Origin: Chiridota heheva
Lineage: Eukaryota; Echinodermata; Holothuroidea; Apodida; Chiridotidae
Direction: 5' to 3'
Assembly: GCA_020152595.1 (NCBI GenBank)
Contig: JAIGNY010001753.1
Location: 471,001 to 535,000, forward strand
Length of the DNA stretch: 64,000 bases
In this document: positions 500-21,957 of the stretch, piece after piece
How positions within the stretch are numbered: the stretch's first letter is position 1
Layout of the letters: the number at the start of each line of letters is the position of its first letter
The notes under the pieces: generated by a model
The model's database searches: none
Seen by the model: only the letters and a program-made list of their open reading frames with translations
Told to the model about the DNA's origin: nothing
Position numbers and translations under genes: made by a program

Positions 500-1350
500 A
501 CATCAAAAAAGCTGTCAGAATTTAGCCAAGCAAAACCAGGTGTATTTGAAATTTGACTTGGTTCATATTTATGAGAGGGCCACTGGTACTAATCACAAGC
601 CAAGAAGTACATACAGGCCTGAGAATCTTCTTATCAGTACCTCCCCCAACCCCAATAGGTCGTGATGTTGCTTGCAAGCTGAGTCACGTTATCCAATGAA
701 AAGTATATTATGATTGTTATACGTCCCACTCAGATACTTTATTGCCAGTATATATGCCATATTATTTTTTAAGTGGCATTTAATAGGGCTTACTGTAAAT
801 TCCATCAAGTGTTCGTATTGTCACAAGTGTGTGTCTGATCTCAGTTAAGTGGTGTTGTTCAGGCTAAGAGTACAGTGGACATGAGAGTGTGTACACTCTA
901 TAAACACCTTGTAACACACATGGTGCTGAAGATTTGTTTGAAACCGAAAATGGTTATTTAGTATTTATACATATCTTTGCAACTGTGTGTTCTTGTTTGA
1001 ACTGTCTCTAGTGTTTTTGTCTCACATAATTTGGCACTAAATACTCTTGCAAATTGTACTGATCATGGCAATCTGCTTTGTACATTACAATGTGGCTCAT
1101 ATTTTCTAGCATTGAACATGCAGTACCAGTAAGTTGAGTTTACGTGATGTAGGGTTGTTTATCTGCACTGATCATATTATATCTGCATATATATCATACT
1201 ATATATATATCTGCATTAGCTCATATTATCTAGCATTGAACGTGCAGTACCAGTAAGCTGAGTTTTTTAGGGTTCTTTATCTGCATAGCCACAGTGTAAT
1301 TTGCTACAGATGTTATATTTATAGCCAAGAATTTGAGATAAAAAAGACTA
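500..1350. other. AT-rich non-coding stretch
   Basis: No coding frame, RNA gene or tandem array was found. A stretch of about 60 bp containing TAGCATTGAAC and GCAGTACCAGTAAG occurs twice (about 1107-1137 and 1229-1260), a small local duplication around a TATATA run. The right edge is the left arm of the DNA transposon. Confidence 0.6.
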
Positions 1351-1780
1351 AACCTGGAAATAGCTGGTTACAAGCTGATTTTTTTAGGATTAGAATTATG
1401 TGTGAAATTACATACCAAAAGTTCCTGTAAATCCTCCTTAAGATTTCCCAGAAATCTAAGATGGCGTCCAAAATGGCCGCCATTTTAAATTTGTATCCCA
1501 ACTTTGTATCCAGGGAGCTTATGAATAAAATAATAAGTGTCTAAACATATGTTTTAAGGGACAAGTAATCCATTGAAAGCATATCATTTAAGAGGTTATA
1601 ACATCCCAAATTACCAAAACCAAGATGGCGTCCAAAATGTCCGCCATTTTATCTATTTTTACCATAATTGCGGAATGTAACAAATATCAACACAGTGTCA
1701 AAACATGTTCTAAATTGGCAGAAGGAATCCATTGAAATATTTGGTTCATATGGTCCTAAACATCCAATCATAAATAATAA
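1351..1780 (+). repeat. Left inverted-repeat arm with subterminal direct repeats
   Basis: The arm is built of repeats about 165 bp apart. AAGATGGCGTCCAAAATG followed by CCGCCATTTTA occurs at about 1458 and again at about 1622. A block starting GTGTCTAAACATATG (about 1536) has a weaker echo starting AGTGTCAAAACATG (about 1696). The right arm carries matching inverted blocks. Subterminal repeats are usual transposase-binding substrates; that role is inferred here. Confidence 0.65.
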
Positions 1781-1845
1781 CCCTACACAAATCATTACCC
1801 CAAACCTATAAGCCCAACAGGAAAATCATTCTTTGTGGCAAAAAC

Positions 1846-4800
1846 TACACACGAAAAAGTTCCATAGCAGCTGAAAAAAGGTCTGCCAATCTTGAACAAA
1901 AAGTAGAAGTACCTCAACTAAGGTCAAGTACTTCTCGGACATTTGACATAAAAAAATATTGTATGTTCTGTTTGGAGCCTGTCAAATTAGACATTAAGAA
2001 ACCATATAAAAGAAGGAGAGTAGTAAGCAACCTTGGACATTCAAGCAACAGTATTAAAATGTGCAATAAAAAAAACAAGACCACTGGGGCAATGTTGTTG
2101 CAGAACGTCTACAACAGACATATGACCTTGTAGCAGCGGAGGCTAAGTCTCATTGAAAGTGTGCCTAATTATTTCTTAAAACAGAGTGAGGAAAGGCCAA
2201 ATGATAATTTGTGGGAGGAAGCATTTAAGAAAGTTTGCGAGTTTTAGGTGATAATGATGAGTGTCAATACTCAGTGCAGGAGCTTCTAGAATACATGAGC
2301 TTGTTCTTGGATGGATTTGAAGGATACTCAGTGAAGCAATTCAAGGCCAAACTGAAAGAACATTACGGTGATGATAGTAGTTGTAACCAGTATTACTGGA
2401 AAACCAAGTGTCATAAGTTTCCGTGACTCAACACACAGGATCCTCCATAAAAAGTGGATTACTGATAAGGTGATTTATGTGAATCGTCAAAGTACCACTA
2501 CACCACAGAGGTCTGTCACGGAGGTCTGTCACGGAGGTCTATCATGGAGGTCTGTCACGGAGGTCTATCACGGAGGTCTGTCACGGAGGTCTGTCACGGA
2601 GGTCTGTCACGGAGGTCTGTCACGGAGGTCTGTCATGGAGGTCTGTCATAGAGGTCATGCTCTCACCTCTATTGCTTGGTATAGCTGTGTATATACACCG
2701 CATTTATGCCTCCCGTGAACTGATTGACATTCTTAGCAGCATTTGCTTTGCAGATAACTACAGAGGTGCAGCGGTTTGAGCAAGCTCTTAAGTCAGATAG
2801 TGACCTGTCATTTGACCTGAATGATTGCACAGTTTGTGTTTGATAACGCTGACTTCAATGTAGCTACAGTTACGGGACACAACACTTTTCATACTATGGG
2901 TGGCATAGCTTGTGAAACACCATCTAGTATTGTAAATAGCTCACCTATCAATTGTGAAGTAAAGTAAAGCTGCACTCTGCTGAAATCACTGTTGCCTTTG
3001 GACAAGTTCCTATGAAGAGGTATAGCAGCCAGGTGTTCCAGGTCTACAGTCTGTTACAATGGAGCCCCTTTAGATTTCTAGCCAAGAACCATCATGCCTA
3101 GGATCAGCAGTTGCCCTAGATGCCCTGTGGGTGTGTTGCTGCATTTTAGAAATATCCCCATGCCCCTCATGGAGTAGCTTTATGACTGTGGCAATGACGA
3201 ACGATCAGCTTGAAAGAAACAGAATCATAACTCTTCCCTTCAGCAACCTGGATCCAATCAATCTAATCACTATCTACTCTGCTATATGCTTTGCTCAAGA
3301 GCAGTGTAAAAACATGACTTTCAGGTATGCCCAGTTACATCTGACCAGCCTTTATACATTAAAGCTGGGAGATTGTAGCTGCTGCAAAAGATCTACACAA
3401 AGTCGTTGTGCGCCTTCATGAATTCCATCTCCTGATGTCTTATCTCAGCAGCATTGAGCAGATTATGTCTGGAAGTGAAATAGCGGAGCTTTGGGAGTCG
3501 GTGTACGTAAAAGGATCCGTTGTACACATGTTAACTGGCCATGCCTTCACTCGTGAACTCAGTGCTCATGTTCTTACATCATCAGCCTTCATTTGTGTTT
3601 TAATGGGTACACCTGGTTCCTTGGACAGCATAGACATAGAGAACCTTTCACAAAGGCCTTCTTAACCAACACTTAATGCCCCTGAAGTAGCTGAGGAGGA
3701 GACTTTAAAGTGTTTAACCAACTCATATCAACATTACTTGGCCAAACAGTAAGTCAGAGCAAGACTGGAAAACTCTGGGTGCAGTATATCCGGCAAGTGG
3801 CACTCATTCAACCCTTCATTTGTGCTGAAAGGACGGGTGAATGGAAACTTCACCTCTACTGTTTGAGATAAATGATTCACATTTCATGTCGCAGGTCACC
3901 ACCATTACGCAAAGGCTGTATCAACAACAAATGGAAGCTTCAGAGCAGACAATGCCAGTTGTGGAGTACAAAGTCTTTACAGAGAAGGGATACTTCACTA
4001 TCCGTCATCTTGATCAATTCTGAAGTGAAATTTTTTCAAACCAGACCATTGAGCAGTTATTAATGTGAATGCTGAAAATATCTGGAGGAATGACTCATGG
4101 CCATGGTATCACAGATAGTACATTAACAAAGTGGGTCCATGCATTACCTCGCTGCATTCCTGCCTGTCGGGCACTGGAGCGGTTCACTGCCACATCTGAG
4201 CAACAAAGAGACCTTTGTTCTAGTACCCAGTCCAGGGACAACAGACATCAGTGTGACTTTTTACAGTGGCTACAGGCACATCCACCATTTGCTGGATACG
4301 AACCAGATTGTCTAGTTTCCATATCAATTGAAATTATTGCAGATGCATCAGTCAACTGCGATGATGCGGTAAATATTTGTCACACTACGTTGCAATGATA
4401 AGGTGGATACAATCAGTACCAAGAAAAAGATTGTCAAAATCACAGGACAGAACACAGAAGTCAACGCAAGTTTGATATTCTACAGAATTATGTGTGTTCT
4501 TAATAAAAGTTCTTAGATAAAAGCGTTCTCCGCTTTCGAGCTTGCTTCTCAACCACCTTCCCTCTTCCATGATGGTGTAATGCGGAAGACTGCAAAGAGT
4601 TTTCTTGGTGTCCATTTGAAATCTTTTGTTGCACAGCAATCCAACGTATCATGGACTTGGTTTTTCACTTTAGATGGTGGCACCTACTTCAAATTGTCAC
4701 TTGGCATCATCCGTCAACCTATGGTGATGTACGTCAGTCATATATACCGTACATCCTGAAGCATTATGGTATTGGATCAACAGTGGTTTTTGATGGTTAT

Positions 4801-5600
4801 GGCAGCACCATGCTTTGATGAAGGTAGCTCAGCACAGGCGGAGAGCTTAGAAGTGTACATTCGGTGAGGTCATATTTGATAATAACACAGCAATTATCCT
4901 CCTCAATCAGCATTCTTGACAAACAGTGTGAATTCAAAATCTGTGGTAAGCAGGCAGAGGCAGATGCAGATTCACTAATTGTGTCCACAGCACTTGCCAT
5001 AGCAGAGTCAGTAGAGCTGCCACTTGTTGTAGGAACAGACACTGACTTATTGGTCATGCTTATGGCTCGGGCAACTACTTCTACTATTGTGTACATGTTA
5101 TACCGCAGCAACCCGATAACCTTGTACAACAAACATGAAATTCAGCTGGCGATCGGAGACTGCAGCCACGCATTGATGGTTATAAATGCTATAACAGGAT
5201 GTGATACTGTTTCTGCCATCTATCATCAGGGCAAACACAAGGCATTTAATCTTGTGCACAAAAAACAGAACTATGATCAGTTGGACACGTTCACAAAGGC
5301 TGAATGCACACGTGCAGAGGTGAAAGAAACAGGAGAAAGTTTCATTCTCAAGTACGGAGGAGCAACTTGTAATCTCTGGATGAATACCGCCATATAGCAT
5401 ATAAACAAGTGATTGGTATGAGTTCCCTTAGTTCATCATTCCAGCTGGCAAGCTTACCCCCAACTAGTGCTGCAGCAAAGCAACATTCCTACACCGCACT
5501 CTAATACCTCACACTTCAACAATAGACGGGAAATCCTCTGCCTCCAACAGACTGGGGATGGCGATCACAGGATGGTACTCTTGCAAGTGGAAATGGTGGA
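1846..5600 (+). pseudogene. Broken transposon gene: cysteine knuckle, central region, FEN/XPG-like nuclease
   Basis: Fragments in changing frames follow the order of a large transposon-associated family that is widespread in invertebrates (recognised from general knowledge). A CxxC element reading YCMFCLEPV is near 1963. VAERLQQTYDLVAAEAKSH (about 2096-2155) is followed at once by a stop. Next come ECQYSVQELLEYM (2250-2300), EVQRFEQALKSDSDLSFDL (2764-2820), FDNADFNVATVTGHNTFHTM (about 2841-2900), IITLPFSNLDPINLITIYSA (about 3227-3285), FHLLMSYLSSIEQIMSGSEI (3423-3485) and GHAFTREL (about 3538-3560). The C-terminal half has four acidic motifs in FEN order: VVFDGYGS (4784-4807), QAEADADSLI (4951-4980), GTDTDLLVML (5032-5061) and GCDTVSAIYHQGK (5200-5235). 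A tail with SLPPTSAAAKQHSY and DWGW follows. The longest intact piece is 4864-5397 (177 codons). Stops, frameshifts and a tandem array at 2508 make it non-functional. Confidence 0.75.
2508..2650. repeat. 13-bp minisatellite (11 copies) inside the transposon gene
   Basis: Eleven head-to-tail copies of GAGGTCTGTCACG with few substitutions (CATG, ATC and CATA variants). It sits between two conserved coding pieces of the transposon gene, ending near 2500 and resuming near 2715. It therefore expanded within, or replaced, coding sequence. Its 143 bp is not a multiple of three, so it shifts the frame. Confidence 0.9.
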
Positions 5601-5829
5601 AAATTCTTAATGTGAATTTTCTAAGAACAGGTGATTCATATCTTCCAATCTTCTTTGAACAAAAAAATGTCCATAGGGAGAAAAAATCTGACGTGTCTCC
5701 TTCTTTCCATTGTAAAAGTTTCACTTTTCAAAAAATCACCTCATTTAGGTGGGTCACAGTTTCTATAAATTAACAGATTATAAGAAAGGTTACAAACGTA
5801 TTTGATGTGTACAAAGGTGTATGAGGGGA

Positions 5830-6282
5830 TTTTGTGATAATCATATGCTATATTGTGAGACCTGGTTGGCAGAGTTTTGGACGGCATTTTGGTCATTTTG
5901 GTTGGTGCCTTATCGTTTTGTAACCTCTTAGTATTTTTTTTGATGGATTCTTTGTTCATTAGAACATATTGTTGGTCATTTTTTTGATTTTGTTTTTTGT
6001 ATTGTGAACTTGTCAGGTATAAATGATATAAAAAAAATAAAAAAATGGTGTCAAAAATGATGTCATCTTAGTTTTGGTCATTATGAGATGTTATAACCTC
6101 TTAGTGATGCTTCCAAGTGGATTACTTGTCCCTTAAAACATATGTTTAGACACTTATTTCTTACTTATCACCTTTCTGGATGCAAAGTTATGATAAGATT
6201 TTCAGGAGTTATAGTATGTAATTCTACACATAATTTTGACCTATCCTGAAAAAAGCAGCTTGTTACCAGCTATTTCCAGGTT
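5830..6282 (-). repeat. Right inverted-repeat arm of the DNA transposon
   Basis: This is the reverse complement of the left arm. The best-aligned part is 6087-6282, holding GATGTTATAACCTCTTA, GGATTACTTGTCCCTTAAAA and CCAGCTATTTCCAGGTT. A second, more diverged block at about 5870-5935 repeats the GTAACCTCTTAGTA motif and a relative of the GGCGTCCAAAATG motif read in reverse. Confidence 0.65.
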
Positions 6283-7690
6283 ATTTCTGCTTGGGTGGTA
6301 TATGATGAAGGGATTAACCTCATTTTCATTGTGTGTAACTGATTGTATGCCTTTTGTGTGCATTATCTTTTTACATAATTTATAATTTCAGTTTCTAAGC
6401 ACTATTTCCTGATTACCTATAAACATAATTTTTGCTCATGTACAATCTGAATGGTATTTATTTCCTGATGGTTGTTATTGGGAGGCCAGTTGCCTAGCTG
6501 GAAACCCAGTGGGTGCAGGGATACCAGCCTGATACAAGTGGTTTGGTTGCCATGACAATATATTTGTGATATTATCACATATTTTAAAAGTTACTAAAAT
6601 GTGAGCTCGATTTTAGCTCACAGTTTGTTAAGCTTGCACGGTTTTGCCTTGACGTGACACCGGTCGGTTTCCAAAACAAAAACCGTTTTAACTGGAGAAC
6701 CAGTTTTCACCGGAAAACTGGTTTTTACCCGTAATGTTAATAAGTCCTGAACATAAAGTGCATTACAGTCACTGCATGCACTGTTATATGATAGCAGTTA
6801 CGATGTTTGTATTACAGTATTATCTGTAAATAATGTTAAAAATGATAACGGATGAATTGATGAATAAAATATATTAATAAACTTTAGTGTTGTTTGCGTG
6901 TAAAGTGATTTTATTACCCCATTTGCTCCTCAAATGATGCAGATTTTTCCCCTTTTGCCAGTCTAGGTCCAAAAAGCATTAAACAGTTCCACAATGTCCT
7001 AAGCCCAGTTCATAAAAAAGTTATGAAAAAGACTGTGTCGACAGGCCATTTATATGCTCTTATTTGCTCACGGTTTCTATTCATAGAGATGATATCAATT
7101 TTCTTGCATGTAAAAAAGAAAAGAAATTTGTTGGATACTTGTAAAACAGATACAAATTTAGCCAGATCTAAATGCATCATCTTATGATGTGATGCTAGCC
7201 ATCGTATACTTGATCATGCAGTACAATTTTTGCTGATTTGCATATAGCCTAACGTTACAATGGGAAAATCTTAGTTGAGATCCCACCCACCTGATACTCA
7301 ACATTTCTGTGAAACATTAACCTTAAAAAAAAATTTATAATAATAAAATCATTAATCTTGCATACCTCTCTGTTGTTTTTCAAGTTCAGTAATCATTCTT
7401 GCTATGCTTTTAATTTAAATTGGCCTCTTTTGTGCATCGCGGTGGCATTTTTAATTATAGTTAAGCCATCAAATTTGGTCCTACCCTACAGCCTTATAAG
7501 GTATTCCCCAAAATTGCATGAACGGGAGTGTACAGAAAAGAAAATGCCAGCTAATGAACAGTGTCCCACTCCCCATCAAATTTGTATTTTGATCAAAATG
7601 AAAAAAATATAAGTGTATACCCTGCAATTTCTATACAAATGATACGATATATGATGATTGAATACATCATAATTGAAAATTAAACTGAAT
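6283..7690. other. AT-rich non-coding stretch with one hairpin
   Basis: No coding frame or tandem array. A perfect 11-bp inverted repeat (AACCAGTTTTC / GAAAACTGGTT, 6698-6708 and 6713-6723, 4-nt loop) lies in a local cluster of ACCGGTTTT-like words. At 6605-6630 GATTTTAGCTCACAGTTTGT resembles one unit of the 46-bp array at 9953. Short open frames here (for example 7358-7612) show no family resemblance. Confidence 0.6.
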
Positions 7691-8028: not shown

Positions 8029-9400
8029 TCGTATTCCATACTTAAACAGGACCTTATTTCAGCAATGCACTATAAAAACATTTTATTCTTACAACACGGC
8101 CACTCACCCAAGTAAAATCAATTCTTCAGCACTCTGTAGATAAGATTTTGAGTTCTATATTGATTTAAAACACTTCAATAATAAGCAATATTCTTGGTCA
8201 CTCAGAATTGTATAAAAGGCAAAGCTCATCCATAATTGAACATTCTGTTTGTTCTTTCTACTTATGAAACGAAATGATGTGCAGAGTGGAATGCAGAGAT
8301 AATATTATTAATTTATGCATACCCAACAGGCCATCACCTAACACAAAAAACTTATATAAACTACCTCCACTTTGAACCAATGAAATCATTTGAACTTGTA
8401 CCCCAAGTGAATCACACCTGCCATGGGTCAATTACATACACACGTGATTGGTACGGAAGATTCCATCGCTAGTGCAATTATGAGTAAACATAATTACGGA
8501 GAACGGAAGAAATTTTTCAAAACAAAATGCATGAAATCCTTCGTTCTTTTTTAAATCTGAACAATTTTGATAAGGACAATTCAAAAGTATAAGTTACATA
8601 TGAAAATGAGATCAGACTGGAAAAGAAACTATTTGAGTACATGAATGGTTGTTTTCTCTTGTGCTCTCATTGTGAATCATATAGCAGCTTCCTGATAAGT
8701 AATACTGATAACACGGGGATAATTTATCTTTGCATCTTGTTATTCCCGGGCCATAACGATAACGAATTTCACTCCTCTAAGCCATGCTGTTTTATAGGAC
8801 AGTTTCCCAGAATCAAACTTTAAAACTGTCGAAGATATGATACTCAGCGTCAAGGAACAAATTATCGGCAAGTGAAAAAGATGTGAAATCCCGCTAGCTT
8901 GTTGTTTGGTGCGTGGGAAAAAATCACCTCTTGTACTGATTTACAAACAGTGGGAATAAAGTTAACTTTTTTGACCAATGACGGCACTGAAGTCATGCTC
9001 ATAAGTCATGATATTCATTCACAAGTTTTATAACCAGGGACTGTCGCGCCTATACACAATGTGTTGTAAATTGAAGTTAATGGAGTCTGGATGTGGTCTT
9101 GCACATGTAGGGCGGGGATGGTTGTGAATTTATAAGTGAATGGTCTTGCGATGTGGTATTGTTATCGCCCGGACTTACAATAGATTGAAAAAGTATTTTA
9201 CAAAACAAAAGAACTTGGGAGAAAATGTTCAGGGTTAAATTAAGAAGGGATTATAAAGAAATGACGGTGCAGTTATTTTGTTTGTGGAAATATTAGCCCA
9301 GAAAGAAGACAGAAAGAGACATTATTGAGCAGAATTGAGCCTGTTATTACAGGTACATGTAATATTCATGACTGCATTTTCAAACATTCTTATTTCTCAA
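8029..9400. other. AT-rich non-coding stretch
   Basis: No coding frame, RNA gene, tandem array or recognisable element end was seen. The 60-codon open frame at 8641-8823 has no repeat, motif or splice context to support it. Confidence 0.55.
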
Positions 9401-11990: not shown

Positions 11991-13090
11991 CTTACAAACC
12001 TTATCTACCAACTGTGGTGTAGCGGTTATCATACATGTCTACAGACCATGAGGCCCTGGGTTTAAGCCTGGGTTAGGTAGACACACCAGTGCACCACAAC
12101 TGGTTATCAAAGGCCGTGGACATTGACTTGGTTATCGATGTTATGTCTGTCCGTACGTCGTACCTGTGTTCTCGTCCGGTTGTATTAAGCGTTTTGTGAT
12201 AGCATTGTTCTTACTTCATTACTCAATCTTAAATGGGATAACCTCACCTGCCACCTCCTCCTCCGGAAACTCTTTTCTCCCACCCTCTGCAGGAAAAGTG
12301 TTCTTTTCTTCTGGATACCCAGCCATGTTGGCATCCCTGGCAATGACAGGGCTGATACAGCCGCTAAGCTTGCCCTTAACCTCCTCCCTTCCCCTTTTCC
12401 CCAAACCCTCTCTGACATCAAACCGCTTATCGCTTCTCTTGTTCGTGACCGCTGGCAAACCTTATGGAACTTCCAAATTGATAACAAACTCCATGTCATC
12501 CAGCCCACAATCCTGATCAAATCCACCATCAACAACCTTTCTCGTATCGACAACATTCATATTACCCGTCTTAGAATTGGTCACACCCACCTCACTCACT
12601 CCCACCTCCTTATTGGTTCCCCCCAACCCCTCTGTAACAATTGCCACTGCATCCTCACAATCCAACACGTTCTCCTTGCTTGCCCCCTATACAACCTCCC
12701 CAGAGCTTCCCTCGCTCCCCACAACTCAATTGCTGAGTTCTTCCAGAAAAATCCTCCGGATAAAATAATCTCCTTCCTTCAGCATGCATCCCTCTACAAC
12801 CATATTTAATTCTCCTCTTCCACCCCCTCTCTACTTTGTTTTTGTTTTACCCATGCACCTCTCTCGATCACAGCTTTCTGGCTTTTGTTCTTGAATTTCT
12901 CTCATTCTCCTCCTGGTCTCTTTCTTTACTACCTCTAAAATGATCTGACCTCTCAGGCACAATTTGACCTTCGTTGTCGTGGTGCCGTTAAGACCTCATC
13001 AAACAAACAAACAAACATAACCGATACGCAGGCGACGACCCCGTCATTGTAATTGTGTGTTCACTCGTCGTCGTCGCCCTTACAAACCTT
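11991..13090 (+). mobile_element. SINE/LINE composite bounded by a 12-bp target duplication
   Basis: CTTACAAACCTT occurs exactly at 11991-12002 and 13079-13090. Just inside the left copy is a tRNA-like promoter: a box-A-like TGGTGTAGCGGTTATCAT (12013-12031) and a box-B-like GGGTTTAAGCC (about 12057-12068). A 5'-truncated LINE occupies 12189-13018, and about 60 bp follow its CAAA tail before the second duplication. Either a LINE inserted into a SINE or the two were copied as a chimera; I could not find a separate duplication around the LINE alone. Confidence 0.6.
12189..13018 (+). mobile_element. 5'-truncated LINE: RNase H domain, zinc knuckle and 3' UTR
   Basis: An open frame from 12189 to a stop at 12807-12809 encodes about 205 residues. 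It starts inside an RNase H domain: a DS acidic motif at 12198, then FFWIPSHVGIPGNDRADTAA at about 12306-12365. It continues with RLRIGHTHLTHSHL and a CNNCHC...H...C knuckle near 12636-12680. This RNase H plus C-terminal knuckle order is typical of I/Jockey-type non-LTR elements that carry RNase H. A pyrimidine-rich 3' UTR follows, ending GTCGTGGTGCCGTTAAG and a CAAACAAACAAAC tail. The endonuclease and reverse transcriptase are absent. The frame is intact but lacks a start and is only a fragment. Confidence 0.85.
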
Positions 13091-17069: not shown

Positions 17070-17612
17070 TATCACGCAGGCCTGCCATCACGTGCCATCA
17101 CACAGGCCTGCCATCATGTGCCATCACACAGGCTTGCCATCACGCAGGCCTGCCATCATGCAGGCCTGCCATCATGCAGGCCTGCCATCATGCAGGCCTG
17201 CCATCATGCAGGCCTGCCATCATGCAGGCCTGCCATCATGCAGGCCTGCCATCATGCAGGCCTGCCATCATGCAGGCCTGCCATCATGCAGGCCTGCCAT
17301 CATGCAGGCCTGCCATCATGCAGGCCTGCCATCATGCAGGCCTGCCATCATGCAGGCCTGCCATCATGCAGGCCTGCCATCATGCAGGCCTGCCATCATG
17401 CAGGCCTGCCATCATGCAGGCCTGCATCATGCAGGCCTGCCATCAAGTGCCATAATGCAGGCCTGCCATCATGTGCCATCGCTCAGGCCTGTCATCATGT
17501 GCTATCTATCACGCAGGCCTGCGTAATGGCCTGACATCACGCAGGCCTGCCATCATGCAGGCCTGAGGCCTGCCATCACGCAGGCCTGTCATCATGCAGG
17601 CCTGCCATCACG
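17070..17612. repeat. 16-bp palindromic minisatellite (about 33 copies)
   Basis: The unit is CCATCATGCAGGCCTG. It contains the perfect 10-bp palindrome GCAGGCCTGC, and so an AGGCCT site every 16 bp. The centre (17150-17430) is almost uniform, while both edges carry variants such as CACG, CACA and GTGC. Because 16 is not a multiple of three and the unit lacks stops in register, all three + frames stay open for 138-167 codons. None is a credible gene. Confidence 0.95.
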
Positions 17613-18007
17613 TCTACATAAAGTGTTTGAATAATCTAGAGTTCCAGAAAAATATGGCTTCATATTTTGGCCAAATACTCCTTTAGAGTGATGGCTTTTC
17701 TTTAGGTGCTGTTAGTTGACTCGCTTGTGTATCATTCCCAAGTAATATTTCTTGTGGTGCAAGTAACTTGCAATAATTTTGTATCACATGTTAAATTTAT
17801 TATCATGGAAATGATTTTTTGAAATGGTTCTCATTGTTTTATGAATTTAGAAGTTTAATTTCTTTGTTTATGAATAATTTTACCTCAAAACATGTGATTT
17901 TGAAGTTAACTTGTAGGTTGCATGGATATAGGTTTGACCTATTTGTTTTTCATTCTTAAGAAATTCTGCCTGAATTGAGGGAAGAAATTTTCTTTCAATA
18001 CTGCTGG

Positions 18008-21000
18008 AATGCAATTAACATATCCTATTGCAGGAGTGTGAGCAACATATCCTATTGCAGGAGTGCGAGCAACATATCCTATTGCAGGAGTGCGAGCAAC
18101 ATACCCTATTGCAGGAGTGCTAGCAACATATCCTATTGCAGGAGTGCGAGCAACATATCCTATTGCAGGAGTGCTAGCAACATATCCTATTGCAGGAGTG
18201 TGAGCAACATATCCTATTGCAGGAGTGCGGGCAACATATTCTATTGCAGGAGTGCTAGCAACATATCCTATTGCAGGAGCACAACCAACATATTCTATTG
18301 CAGGAGTGCGAGCAACATATCCTATTGCAGGAGTGCTAGCAACATATCCTATTGCAGGAGTGCGAGCAACATATCCTATTGCAGGAGTGCGAGCAACATA
18401 TCCTATTGCAGGAGTGCTAGCAACATATCCTATTGCAGGAGCACAACCAACATATCCTATTGCAGGAGTGCTAGCAACATATCCTATTGCAGGAGTGCTA
18501 GCAACATATCCTATTGCAGGAGTGCTAGCAACATATCCTATTGCAGGAGTGCGAGCAACATATCTTATTGCAGGAGTGCTAGCAACATATCCTATTGCAG
18601 GAATGCGAGCAACATATCCTATTGCAGGAGCACAACCAACATATCCTATTGCAGGAGTGCTAGCAACATATCCTATTGCAGGAGTGCGAGCAACATATCC
18701 TATTGCAGGAGTGCGAGCAACATATCCTATTGCAGGAGTGCTAGCAACATATCCTATTGCAGGAGCACAACCAACATATCCCATTGCAGGAGTGCTAGCA
18801 ACATATCCTATTGCAGGAGCACAACCAACATATCCTATTGCAGGAGTGCGAGCAACATATCCTATTGCAGGAGTGCGAGCAACATATCCCATTGCAGGAG
18901 TGCTAGCAACATATCCTATTGCAGGAGCACAACCAACATATCCCATTGCAGGAGTGCTAGCAACATATCCTATTGCAGGAGCACAACCAACATATCCCAT
19001 TGCAGGAGTGCTAGCAACATATCCTATTGCAGGAGCACAACCAACATATCCTATTGCAGGAGTGCGAGCAACATATCCTATTGCAGGAGTGCGAGCAACA
19101 TATCCTATTGCAGGAGTGCTAGCAACATATCCTATTGCAGGAGCACAACCAACATATCCCATTGCAGGAGTGCTAGCAACATATCCTATTGCAGGAGCAC
19201 AACCAACATATCCTATTGCAGGAGTGCGGGCAACATATCCTATTGCAGGAGTGCGAGCAACATATCCCATTGCAGGAGTGCGAGCAACATATTCTATTGC
19301 AGGAGTGCAACCAGCATATCCTATTGCAGGAGCACAACCAACATATCCTATTGCAGGAGTGCTAGCAACATATCCCATTGCAGGAGTGCTAGCAACATAT
19401 TCTATTGCAGGAGTGCAACCAGCATATCCTATTGCAGGAGCACAACCAACATATTCTATTGCAGGAGTGCAACCAACATATCCCATTGCAGGAGTGCTAG
19501 CAACATATCCTATTGCAGGAGCACAACCAACATATCCTATTGCAGGAGCACAACCAACATATCCTATTGCAGGAGTGCGAGCAACATATCCTATTGCAGG
19601 AGTGCTAGCAACATATCCTATTGCAGGAGCACAACCAACATATCCTATTGCAGGAGTGCTAGCAACATATCCTATTGCAGGAGTGCTAGCAACATATCCT
19701 ATTGCAGGAGTGCTAGCAACATATCCTATTGCAGGAGTGCAACCAGCATATCCCATTGCAGGAGTGCTAGCAACATATCCTATTGCAGGAGTGGGAGCAA
19801 CATATCCTATTGCAGGAGTGCGAGCAACATATTCTATTGCAGGAGTGCGAGCAACATATCCTATTGCAGGAGTGCGAGCAACATATCCTATTGCAGGAGT
19901 GCGGGCAACATATTCTATTGCAGGAGTGCAACCAACATATCCCATTGCAGGAGTGCTAGCAACATATCCTATTGCAGGAGTGCTAGCAACATATCCTATT
20001 GCAGGAGTGCGGGCAGCATATTCTATTGCAGGAGTGCAACCAACATATCCCATTGCAGGAGTGCGAGCAACATATCCTATTGCAGGAGTGCTAGCAACAT
20101 ATCCTATTGCAGGAGTGCTAGCAACATATCCTATTGCAGGATTGCGAGCAACATATCCTATTGCAGGAGTGCGAGCAACATATCCTATTGCAGGAGTGCT
20201 AGCAACATATCCTATTGCAGGAGCACAACCAACATATCCTATTGCAGGAGTGCTAGCAACATATCCTATTGCAGGAGTGCTAGCAACATATCCTATTGCA
20301 GGAGTGCGAGCAACATATCCTATTGCAGGAGCACAACCAACATATCCTATTGCAGGAGTGCTAGCAACATATCCCATTGCAGGAGTGCTAGCAACATATC
20401 CTATTGCAGGAGTGCTAGCAACATATCCTATTGCAGGAGTGCGGGCAACATATTCTATTGCAGGAGTGCAACCAACATATCCTATTGCAGGAGTGCGAGC
20501 AACATATCCTATTGCAGGAGCACAACCAACATATCCTATTGCAGGAGTGCTAGCAACATATCCTATTGCAGGAGTGCGAGCAACATATCCTATTGCAGGA
20601 GTGCGGGCAACATATTCTATTGCAGGAGTGCAACCAACATATCCCATTGCAGGAGTGCTAGCAACATATTCTATTGCAGGAGTGCGAGCAACATATCCTA
20701 TTGCAGGAGTGCGGGCAACATATTCTATTGCAGGAGTGCTAGCAACATATCCTATTGCAGGAGTGCGAGCAACATATCCTATTGCAGGAGTCGGGCAACA
20801 TATTCTATTGCAGGAGTGCTAGCAACATATCCTATTGCAGGAGTGCGAGCAACATATCCTATTGCAGGAGTGCGGGCAACATATTCTATTGCAGGAGTGC
20901 TAGCAACATATCCTATTGCAGGAGTGCGAGCAAGATATCCTATTGCAGGAGCCGAGCAACATATTCTATTGCAGGAGTGCAACCAACATATCCCATTGCA

Positions 21001-21957
21001 GGAGTGCAAGCAACATATCCTATTGCAGGAGTGCAACCAACATATCCCATTGCAGGAGTGCTATCAACATATCCCATTGCAGGAGTGCTAGCAAGATATC
21101 CTATTGCAGGAGTGCGAGCAACATATCCTATTGCAGGAGTGCAACCAACATATCCTATTGCAGGAGTGCGAGCAACATATCCTATTGCAGGAGTGCGAGC
21201 AACATATCCTATTGCAGGAGTGCTATCAACATATCCTATTGCAGGAGTGCAACCAACATATCCTATTGCAGGAGTGCGAGCAACATATTCTATTGCAGGA
21301 GTGCGAGCAACATATCCTATTGCAGGAGTGCGAGCAACATATTCTATTGCAGGAGTGCAACAAAGATATCCCATTGCAGGAGTGCTAGCAACATATCCTA
21401 TTGCAGGAGTGGGAGCAACATATTCTATTGTAGGAGTGCGAGCAACATATCCTATTGCAGGAGTGCTAGCAACATATCCCATTGCAGGAGTGCTAGCAAC
21501 ATATCCTATTGCAGGAGTGCTAGCAATATATCCAATTGCAGGAGTGCGAGCAATATATCCAATTGCAGGAGTGCGAGCAACATATCCTATTGCAGGAGTG
21601 CGGGCAACATATTCTATTGCAGGAGTGCTAGCAACATATCCTATTGCAGGAGTGCTAGCAACATATCCTATTGCAGGAGTGCGAGCAACATATCCTATTG
21701 CAGGAGTGGGAGCAACATATTCTATTGTAGGAGTGCGAGCAACATATCCTATTGCAGGAGTGGGAGCAACATATTCTATTGTAGGAGTGCGAGCAGCATA
21801 TCCTATTGCAGGAGTGCTAGCAACATATCCCATTGCAGGAGTGCTAGCAACATATCCTATTGCAGGAGTGCTAGCAATATATCCAATTGCAGGAGTGCGA
21901 GCAACACATTCTATTGCAGGAGTGCGAACAACATATCCTATTGCAGGAGTGCAACCA
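18008..21957. repeat. 27-bp minisatellite, about 146 copies over 3.95 kb
   Basis: The unit has a constant core, CAACATATCCTATTGCAGGA, plus a variable hexamer. The commonest variants are GTGCGAG, GTGCTAG and GCACAAC; rarer ones are GTGCAAC, GTGCGGG and GTGGGAG. Variants alternate in patches, for example GCACAAC units alternating with GTGCTAG units at 18760-19060. A block of about five units near 21405-21545 recurs near 21755-21900. Single-base deletions at about 20790 and 20951 break the register. Units are stop-free in several frames, giving open frames of 1,038 and 865 codons on + and 902 on -. These overlap, so they are almost certainly not genes. Confidence 0.97.

Follow-up and report, generated by a model that had tools for sequence, protein, structure and literature searches.

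RESULTS

Structure and limits of the element

The window analyzed here is a 64-kb stretch of the genome of the holothuroid Chiridota heheva (C1689, positions 471001–535000; the genome comprises 1.10 Gb in 3,744 contigs). At 1351–6282 of this window lies an element in which two inverted arms enclose one badly broken gene, as read from arm alignment, self-BLAST and inspection of the reading frames (Table 1). The outermost 40 bp of the two sides (1351–1390 versus 6243–6282) are 93% complementary, and an inner block of 41 bp (1532–1572 versus 6118–6158) is 100% complementary. Self-BLAST pairs 1351–1433 with 6197–6282 at 81.6% over 87 columns and 1494–1627 with 6064–6195 at 84.6% over 136 columns. 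Complementarity, self-BLAST and the gene reading together bear out the first-pass annotation of this DNA, which had described inverted arms bracketing a single decayed gene. The arm lengths of 430–450 bp given there (1351–1780 and 5830–6282) were too generous, since the extents of the complementary blocks and self-BLAST pairs leave matched arms of only ~220–280 bp in the window copy.

The limits at 1351 and 6282 also had to be moved outward. A comparison of 51 ends in 50 loci revealed that the sequence common to other copies extends beyond both positions. On the left, copies typically carry the outer piece TAGGCCAAGAATTTTAGATCAAAAAAGGCCCA followed by AACCTGG, the point at which the element had originally been started; on the right, the outer piece reads TAGGCCAAGAATTTTAGCTTT in reverse complement. 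The two outer pieces thus have 17 bp in common and diverge thereafter. Because other copies share sequence outside 1351, the left end of the window copy is placed at ~1322 (TAGCCAAGAATTTGAG...), and its decayed right end was placed by eye at ~6300, with 9/17 positions agreeing in the best script match. The corrected element therefore spans ~1322–6300, with TAG as its first and CTA as its last bases, and its true ends lie ~20–30 bp further out on each side than first proposed.

The arms are enriched in the motif AARATGGC(C/G/T)(G/T)CC, formulated after the arms had been inspected, with 44 occurrences in 8.7 kb of arm sequence versus 10 in 80.9 kb of neighboring sequence; a stricter form, AARATGGCNGCC, occurs 24 times in the arms versus seven times in the neighboring sequence. 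Sites of the AARATGGC type are located in the window at 1458, 1470, 1475 and 1622, in the arms of loci L032–L060, and at each arm's inner edge in a second family, family B, described below (L061, 1282 and 6634; L062, 2010 and 7320). Given its resemblance to the YY1 site, the motif might serve as a promoter or as a transposase site.

Target site duplications and linkage of gene and arms

The element is mobile and has inserted with 3-bp duplications, its gene and arms occurring together at many sites. Identical 3-bp flanks (CAG, ATT, ATA, ATA, TAA and CCA) were found in six of nine hand-picked elements of the window's family (family A) in which both ends are present, L004 having been omitted as its outer left arm was unmatched. 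The pairs that failed are those on C3447, C2691 (left end matches 8/17) and C1382 (11/17), and mismatched pairings of family A ends agree in 6/72. In family B, both ends are available for seven elements, and each of these is flanked by an exact 3-bp duplication, compared with 2/42 for mismatched pairings; a 4-bp duplication was found in none of the 16 pairs (nine from family A, seven from family B). The duplications in the copies therefore identify an inserted element. Alignment of genomic copies, which the first-pass annotation had proposed as the way to fix the ends and the duplication length, thus yielded both (~1322–6300 and 3 bp).

The 189-residue open stretch at 4828–5394 has at least 151 match rows genome-wide, its own included, with the best 150 of 614 candidates scored and some rows representing pieces of one copy. 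In addition to the window, 29 gene loci were fetched, and a window-type arm stands beside the gene in 24 of them. Starting from the arms, we obtained 40 nearly full-length matches, one of which is the window's own, and 33 of the remaining 39 lie less than 7 kb from a hand-entered gene match. The chance expectation for such proximity is 0.05, an underestimate because only part of the gene tables was entered and some rows were picked mostly for lying on arm-bearing contigs; it is still small compared with the 33 observed. Two loci scored as unlinked arms (L034 and L035) do hold gene blocks. Gene copies lacking the arms, or arms without any link to the gene, had been named at the outset as the pattern that would speak against a transposon, and the search for it returned linkage instead, in 24/29 gene loci and 33/39 arm matches.

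Two copies deserve separate mention. L002 (C3712) is a shorter derivative of ~3.1 kb that has both arms, a CCA duplication and the nuclease part of the gene. In the gene copy at L021, the FDGY motif is preceded by an extended series of IY repeats, a microsatellite within the gene.

A second family in the same genome

Family B was recognized through match rows ~33–37% identical to the window stretch 4828–5394, most of them free of stops in the matched stretch. Its elements are ~5.6 kb long; their arms pair without gaps over 126 and 132 bp at 80–83% complementarity, and their ends read TAGTAGAGTCAA, the TAG start being the same as in family A. Two members, L061 and L062, are 93.5% identical across 5.7 kb. 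The family B arm is present in 10/10 family B loci with sufficiently long flanks, which correspond to nine elements (L061 and L082 overlap) and include L062, the source of the arm query. The window arm occurs in 0/29 family B loci (10 with flanks long enough), and the family B arm in 0/29 family A loci. When the genome was searched with the L061 protein, the best 65 of 1,585 first-look candidates were scored. Neither of the two family B copies that were read has an intact gene, its sequence being split between two or more frames in both. The two families thus have different arms, the same protein plan and the same duplication length, with 36–41% identity in the matched transposase blocks and 23–32% in the aligned nuclease stretches. 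A third family may exist near C1684 and C2364.

The putative transposase part of the gene

Between 1855 and 5394, the window gene can be pieced together from 25 stretches that fall in three frames and contain several stops; these stretches were picked by eye, in part with known invertebrate proteins as a guide. In the first conserved part, three acidic positions are kept between families A and B, one in each matched block. Their order would suit the catalytic set of an aspartate-aspartate-glutamate (DDE) transposase, and we infer that this part is likely a DDE-type transposase. No transposase model matched the family B pieces or the window read-through, and the best Pfam match of this part is a weak one, between a single family B piece and DUF6589 (PF20231; E value, 0.0047). 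A genome search with DUF6589 gave 54 rows, 26 of them over the cut-off, some in very long open frames, including two of more than 1,700 residues. On C1684, a 40% relative of the window transposase piece (17389–17664) lies in the same frame as a weak DUF6589 match (17797–18243; E value, 0.04, below the cut-off), each row being within a 501-residue open frame.

The 13-bp tandem array, a feature absent from the first-pass annotation, occupies a place where the window gene should continue. An exact 12-base piece of its unit occurs, among L001–L093, only in the window's own loci, and other copies have different sequence at this place; therefore, gene sequence seems to have been lost at 2504–2656 and the array put there. 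Growth of the array from gene sequence is unsupported, the best match to the unit in nine other loci being 9/13.

The probable nuclease part of the gene

The second conserved part is very probably a FEN-type 5′ nuclease, judging from the register, order and spacing of its acidic residues taken together. The first-pass annotation had listed VVFDG, EADAD, DTD and GCDT as one ordered motif set. The last three do fall within the open stretch at 4828–5394, whereas VVFDG lies upstream in the same frame, with three stops between; the stretch containing it ends at 4815, and ~4863–4933 is read in the other frames. In family B the corresponding motifs run LDGG, VVFDGY, GDAD, GEDTDLL and FSGCDTTS, and individual copies vary.

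A profile of 26 rows (20 retained by HHalign, two from one copy) was aligned with 49 archaeal FEN-1 proteins, obtained from 50 of 53 loci after one was dropped as too short. Whether the full or the insert-free profile is used, FEN-1 residues D80, E152, E154, D173, D175 and D236 fall on columns that are 86–100% acidic, placing six of the seven FEN-1 catalytic carboxylates in register (6/6 of those inside the local alignment) with order and spacing kept. When the insert-free profile was block-shuffled 130 times, no carboxylate agreed in 107 of the shuffles, and the best reached three. In the same alignment, GCDT...GVGKK lies opposite GTDY...GIGPKK of FEN-1, and PF02739 (5′-3′ exonuclease) matches 2/20 members (best E value, 7.4e-4). 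A search of PHROG gave only weak matches (best E value, 0.034), and scans of viral and prokaryote collections yielded no relative. Domain matches obtained with single open stretches and with the read-through were judged to be chance.

Table 1. Features of the element in the window and the evidence on which each was placed
Feature	Position	Strand	Basis
Outermost left end, decayed TAGGCCAAGAATTTTAGATCAAAAAAGGCCCA	1322–1350	+	Homology with left ends of other copies
Left inverted arm, with AAGATGGCGTCC-type unit repeated at 1452–1500 and 1616–1664	1351–1627	+	Complementarity, self-BLAST, motif search
N-terminal gene remnant, CxxC (KKYCMFC)	1855–2028	+	By eye; short weak match to family B, E 0.085
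13-bp tandem array, ~12 units	2504–2656	+	222–248 bp of other sequence at this place in 14 other loci (13 copies)
Putative transposase remnant, first candidate catalytic D (FVFDNADFN)	2827–2931	+	41% over 32 residues to family B, E 1e-7
Putative transposase remnant, second candidate D (VTSDQPLYIKA)	3316–3369	+	8/11 identical to family B, E 8e-4
Putative transposase remnant, third candidate acidic residue (LWESVY)	3369–3608	+	36% over 72 residues to family B, E 2e-13
N-terminal half of predicted nuclease part, split between two frames: TLDGG (first-D motif), VVFDGY	4526–4815	+	Family B counterparts LDGG, VVFDGY
Predicted nuclease part, C-terminal half: EADAD, GTDTD, GCDT	4828–5394	+	One open stretch; profile alignment
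Right inverted arm	6064–6282	−	Complementarity, self-BLAST
Outermost right end, strongly decayed	6283–6300	−	Comparison with right ends of copies, by eye

DISCUSSION

Affiliation of the element

Academ transposons, as the first-pass annotation also noted, are reported to encode an XPG nuclease, and the AcademH and AcademX lineages were reportedly described by Kojima in 2020. In the literature passages checked, the word “XPG” does not appear for the Academ nuclease. The superfamily is credited to Kapitonov and Jurka (2010), as seen in a reference entry of PMC4455052. According to a passage of PMC10045372, AcademX elements have 3–4 bp duplications and a nuclease, AcademH elements have 9–10 bp duplications and a helicase, and this difference in duplication length seems tied to the encoded helicase and nuclease. 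Among the molluscs studied in PMC10294476, Academ is almost exclusive to bivalves, with a mean length of 5,565 bp for curated elements, and Academ-1 is listed in a hard clam table (PMC8905726).

Our element shares with AcademX, as outlined in PMC10045372, its inverted ends, a predicted nuclease and a 3-bp duplication (3 or 4 reported), and its ~5 kb is comparable to the bivalve mean in PMC10294476. The nuclease feature agrees at moderate strength only, as the FEN-1 register is present and an XPG_I match is not. The element begins with TAG and its long arms contain repeats of their own; its likeness to Academ is one of described features. Should the placement in AcademX hold, AcademH would belong to its superfamily as well; it differs in the helicase and 9–10 bp duplications mentioned in PMC10045372, against 3 bp here, and no helicase match was found in the window read-through. 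In anatomy, duplication length and gene content the element agrees with AcademX. The Academ membership suggested in the first-pass annotation gains from the duplication length, inverted ends and predicted nuclease and is likely. Overall, we consider it quite probable that the locus is a dead cut-and-paste DNA transposon of ~5 kb encoding a DDE-type transposase and a FEN/XPG-type nuclease, a pairing that leads us to the AcademX lineage. The element is thus not new as a kind; it is a probable AcademX member, ordinary in kind.

Alternative explanations

Several observations weigh against this interpretation and are taken up here with the alternative that each would favor. The element could represent some other superfamily of DNA transposons, perhaps one without a name, which acquired the same kind of nuclease and works in a similar way outside Academ. 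The AcademX filing rests on features in place of a comparison with Academ transposases, and the transposase part lacks a strong Pfam match, the DUF6589 one being the best. This alternative is nevertheless unlikely, because the element does combine a probable nuclease with a duplication length in the 3–4 bp range, the pair that the passage of PMC10045372 assigns to AcademX.

The C-terminal domain might resemble FEN by chance, being a non-nuclease or another metal-binding fold. The HHalign local alignment has a probability of 30% (P = 5.4e-4), and the insert-free profile scores 23.2 versus 16.9 when reversed, a score of 23.2 being reached by 2/150 full and 3/100 block shuffles; on score alone the margin is modest, and the register is the stronger line of evidence. 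D27, the remaining FEN-1 carboxylate, is outside the local alignment and falls on the aspartate of LDGG only with the global option, at a probability of 8%. NCBIfam SSO5209 matches 8/20 members (best, 8.6e-4), on par with PF02739. None of the copies tested was matched by an XPG model of Pfam, which is the outcome of the profile search against FEN/XPG libraries suggested earlier. A genome search with XPG_I gave five exon-sized matches, four over the cut-off and none at the listed copies, which are probably host gene exons. No convincing Protein Data Bank match was found for the nuclease part, and the AlphaFold2 models were unusable (mean predicted local distance difference test scores of 33.4 without relatives and 37.7 with 26 rows). 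Against a chance resemblance stand the coincidence of all six aligned carboxylates, which no shuffle approached beyond three, the shared GCDT...GVGKK stretch and the PF02739 matches, and we regard it as quite improbable. The FEN/XPG reading of the first-pass annotation is accordingly sustained by the carboxylate register and weakly by PF02739, and finds no backing in the XPG_I model, in Protein Data Bank matches or in the predicted structures. The predicted nuclease resembles FEN-1/XPG 5′ nucleases in carboxylate order and spacing and in a GxG-K stretch after the last D, and differs from them in sharing one gene with a transposase-like part and in being unrecognized by Pfam XPG_I.

That a host gene or an unrelated repeat came to lie between two inverted repeats by coincidence is hardly credible given the joint occurrence of gene and arms at many sites with 3-bp duplications, even though the window copy's own flanks show no target duplication and five of the 29 gene loci were counted as armless (L008, L010, L020, L025 and L027), among which L025 matches the window stretch 5830–5926.

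A possible role of the nuclease in transposition

For a transposon with a fused DDE-type transposase and FEN-type nuclease, the transposase would recognize the arms, free the 3′ ends and join them to a target cut with a 3-bp stagger, leaving a 3-bp gap for host repair to fill, which would produce the duplication. The fused nuclease may act at the insertion joint or at the element ends, cutting there the 5′ strands or flaps that the transposase leaves uncut. Both strand cuts would then come from one protein. The remark on duplication length in the passage of PMC10045372 is consistent with such a role and is not proof of it. A bolder reading, possible but doubtful, is that the nuclease is obligate for transposition, provides the second-strand or flap cut and thereby fixes the duplication length, and that DUF6589, linked to the transposase part by one weak family B match and the same-frame neighbor on C1684, is the superfamily's unrecognized transposase core. 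It builds on the TAG ends, 3-bp duplication, AARATGGC-type motif and transposase-nuclease order that families A and B share.

Implications and surroundings

A protein unnamed in the searched domain libraries is now tied to demonstrable transposon ends and a 3-bp duplication. The same genome also contains relatives that have decayed less and keep long open frames, and these could help to show what a flap nuclease does within a transposase. Genome annotation should treat genes of this kind as mobile elements and mask them, so that they do not inflate the count of host genes.

The window is otherwise rich in minisatellites, with 72 rows, some overlapping, mostly at 9399–63997, including an array of a 27-bp unit at 18017–21952. 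An open stretch at 12189–12806, with LLNLKWDNLTCHLLL upstream, was read by eye as the RNase H part of a non-long-terminal-repeat retrotransposon.

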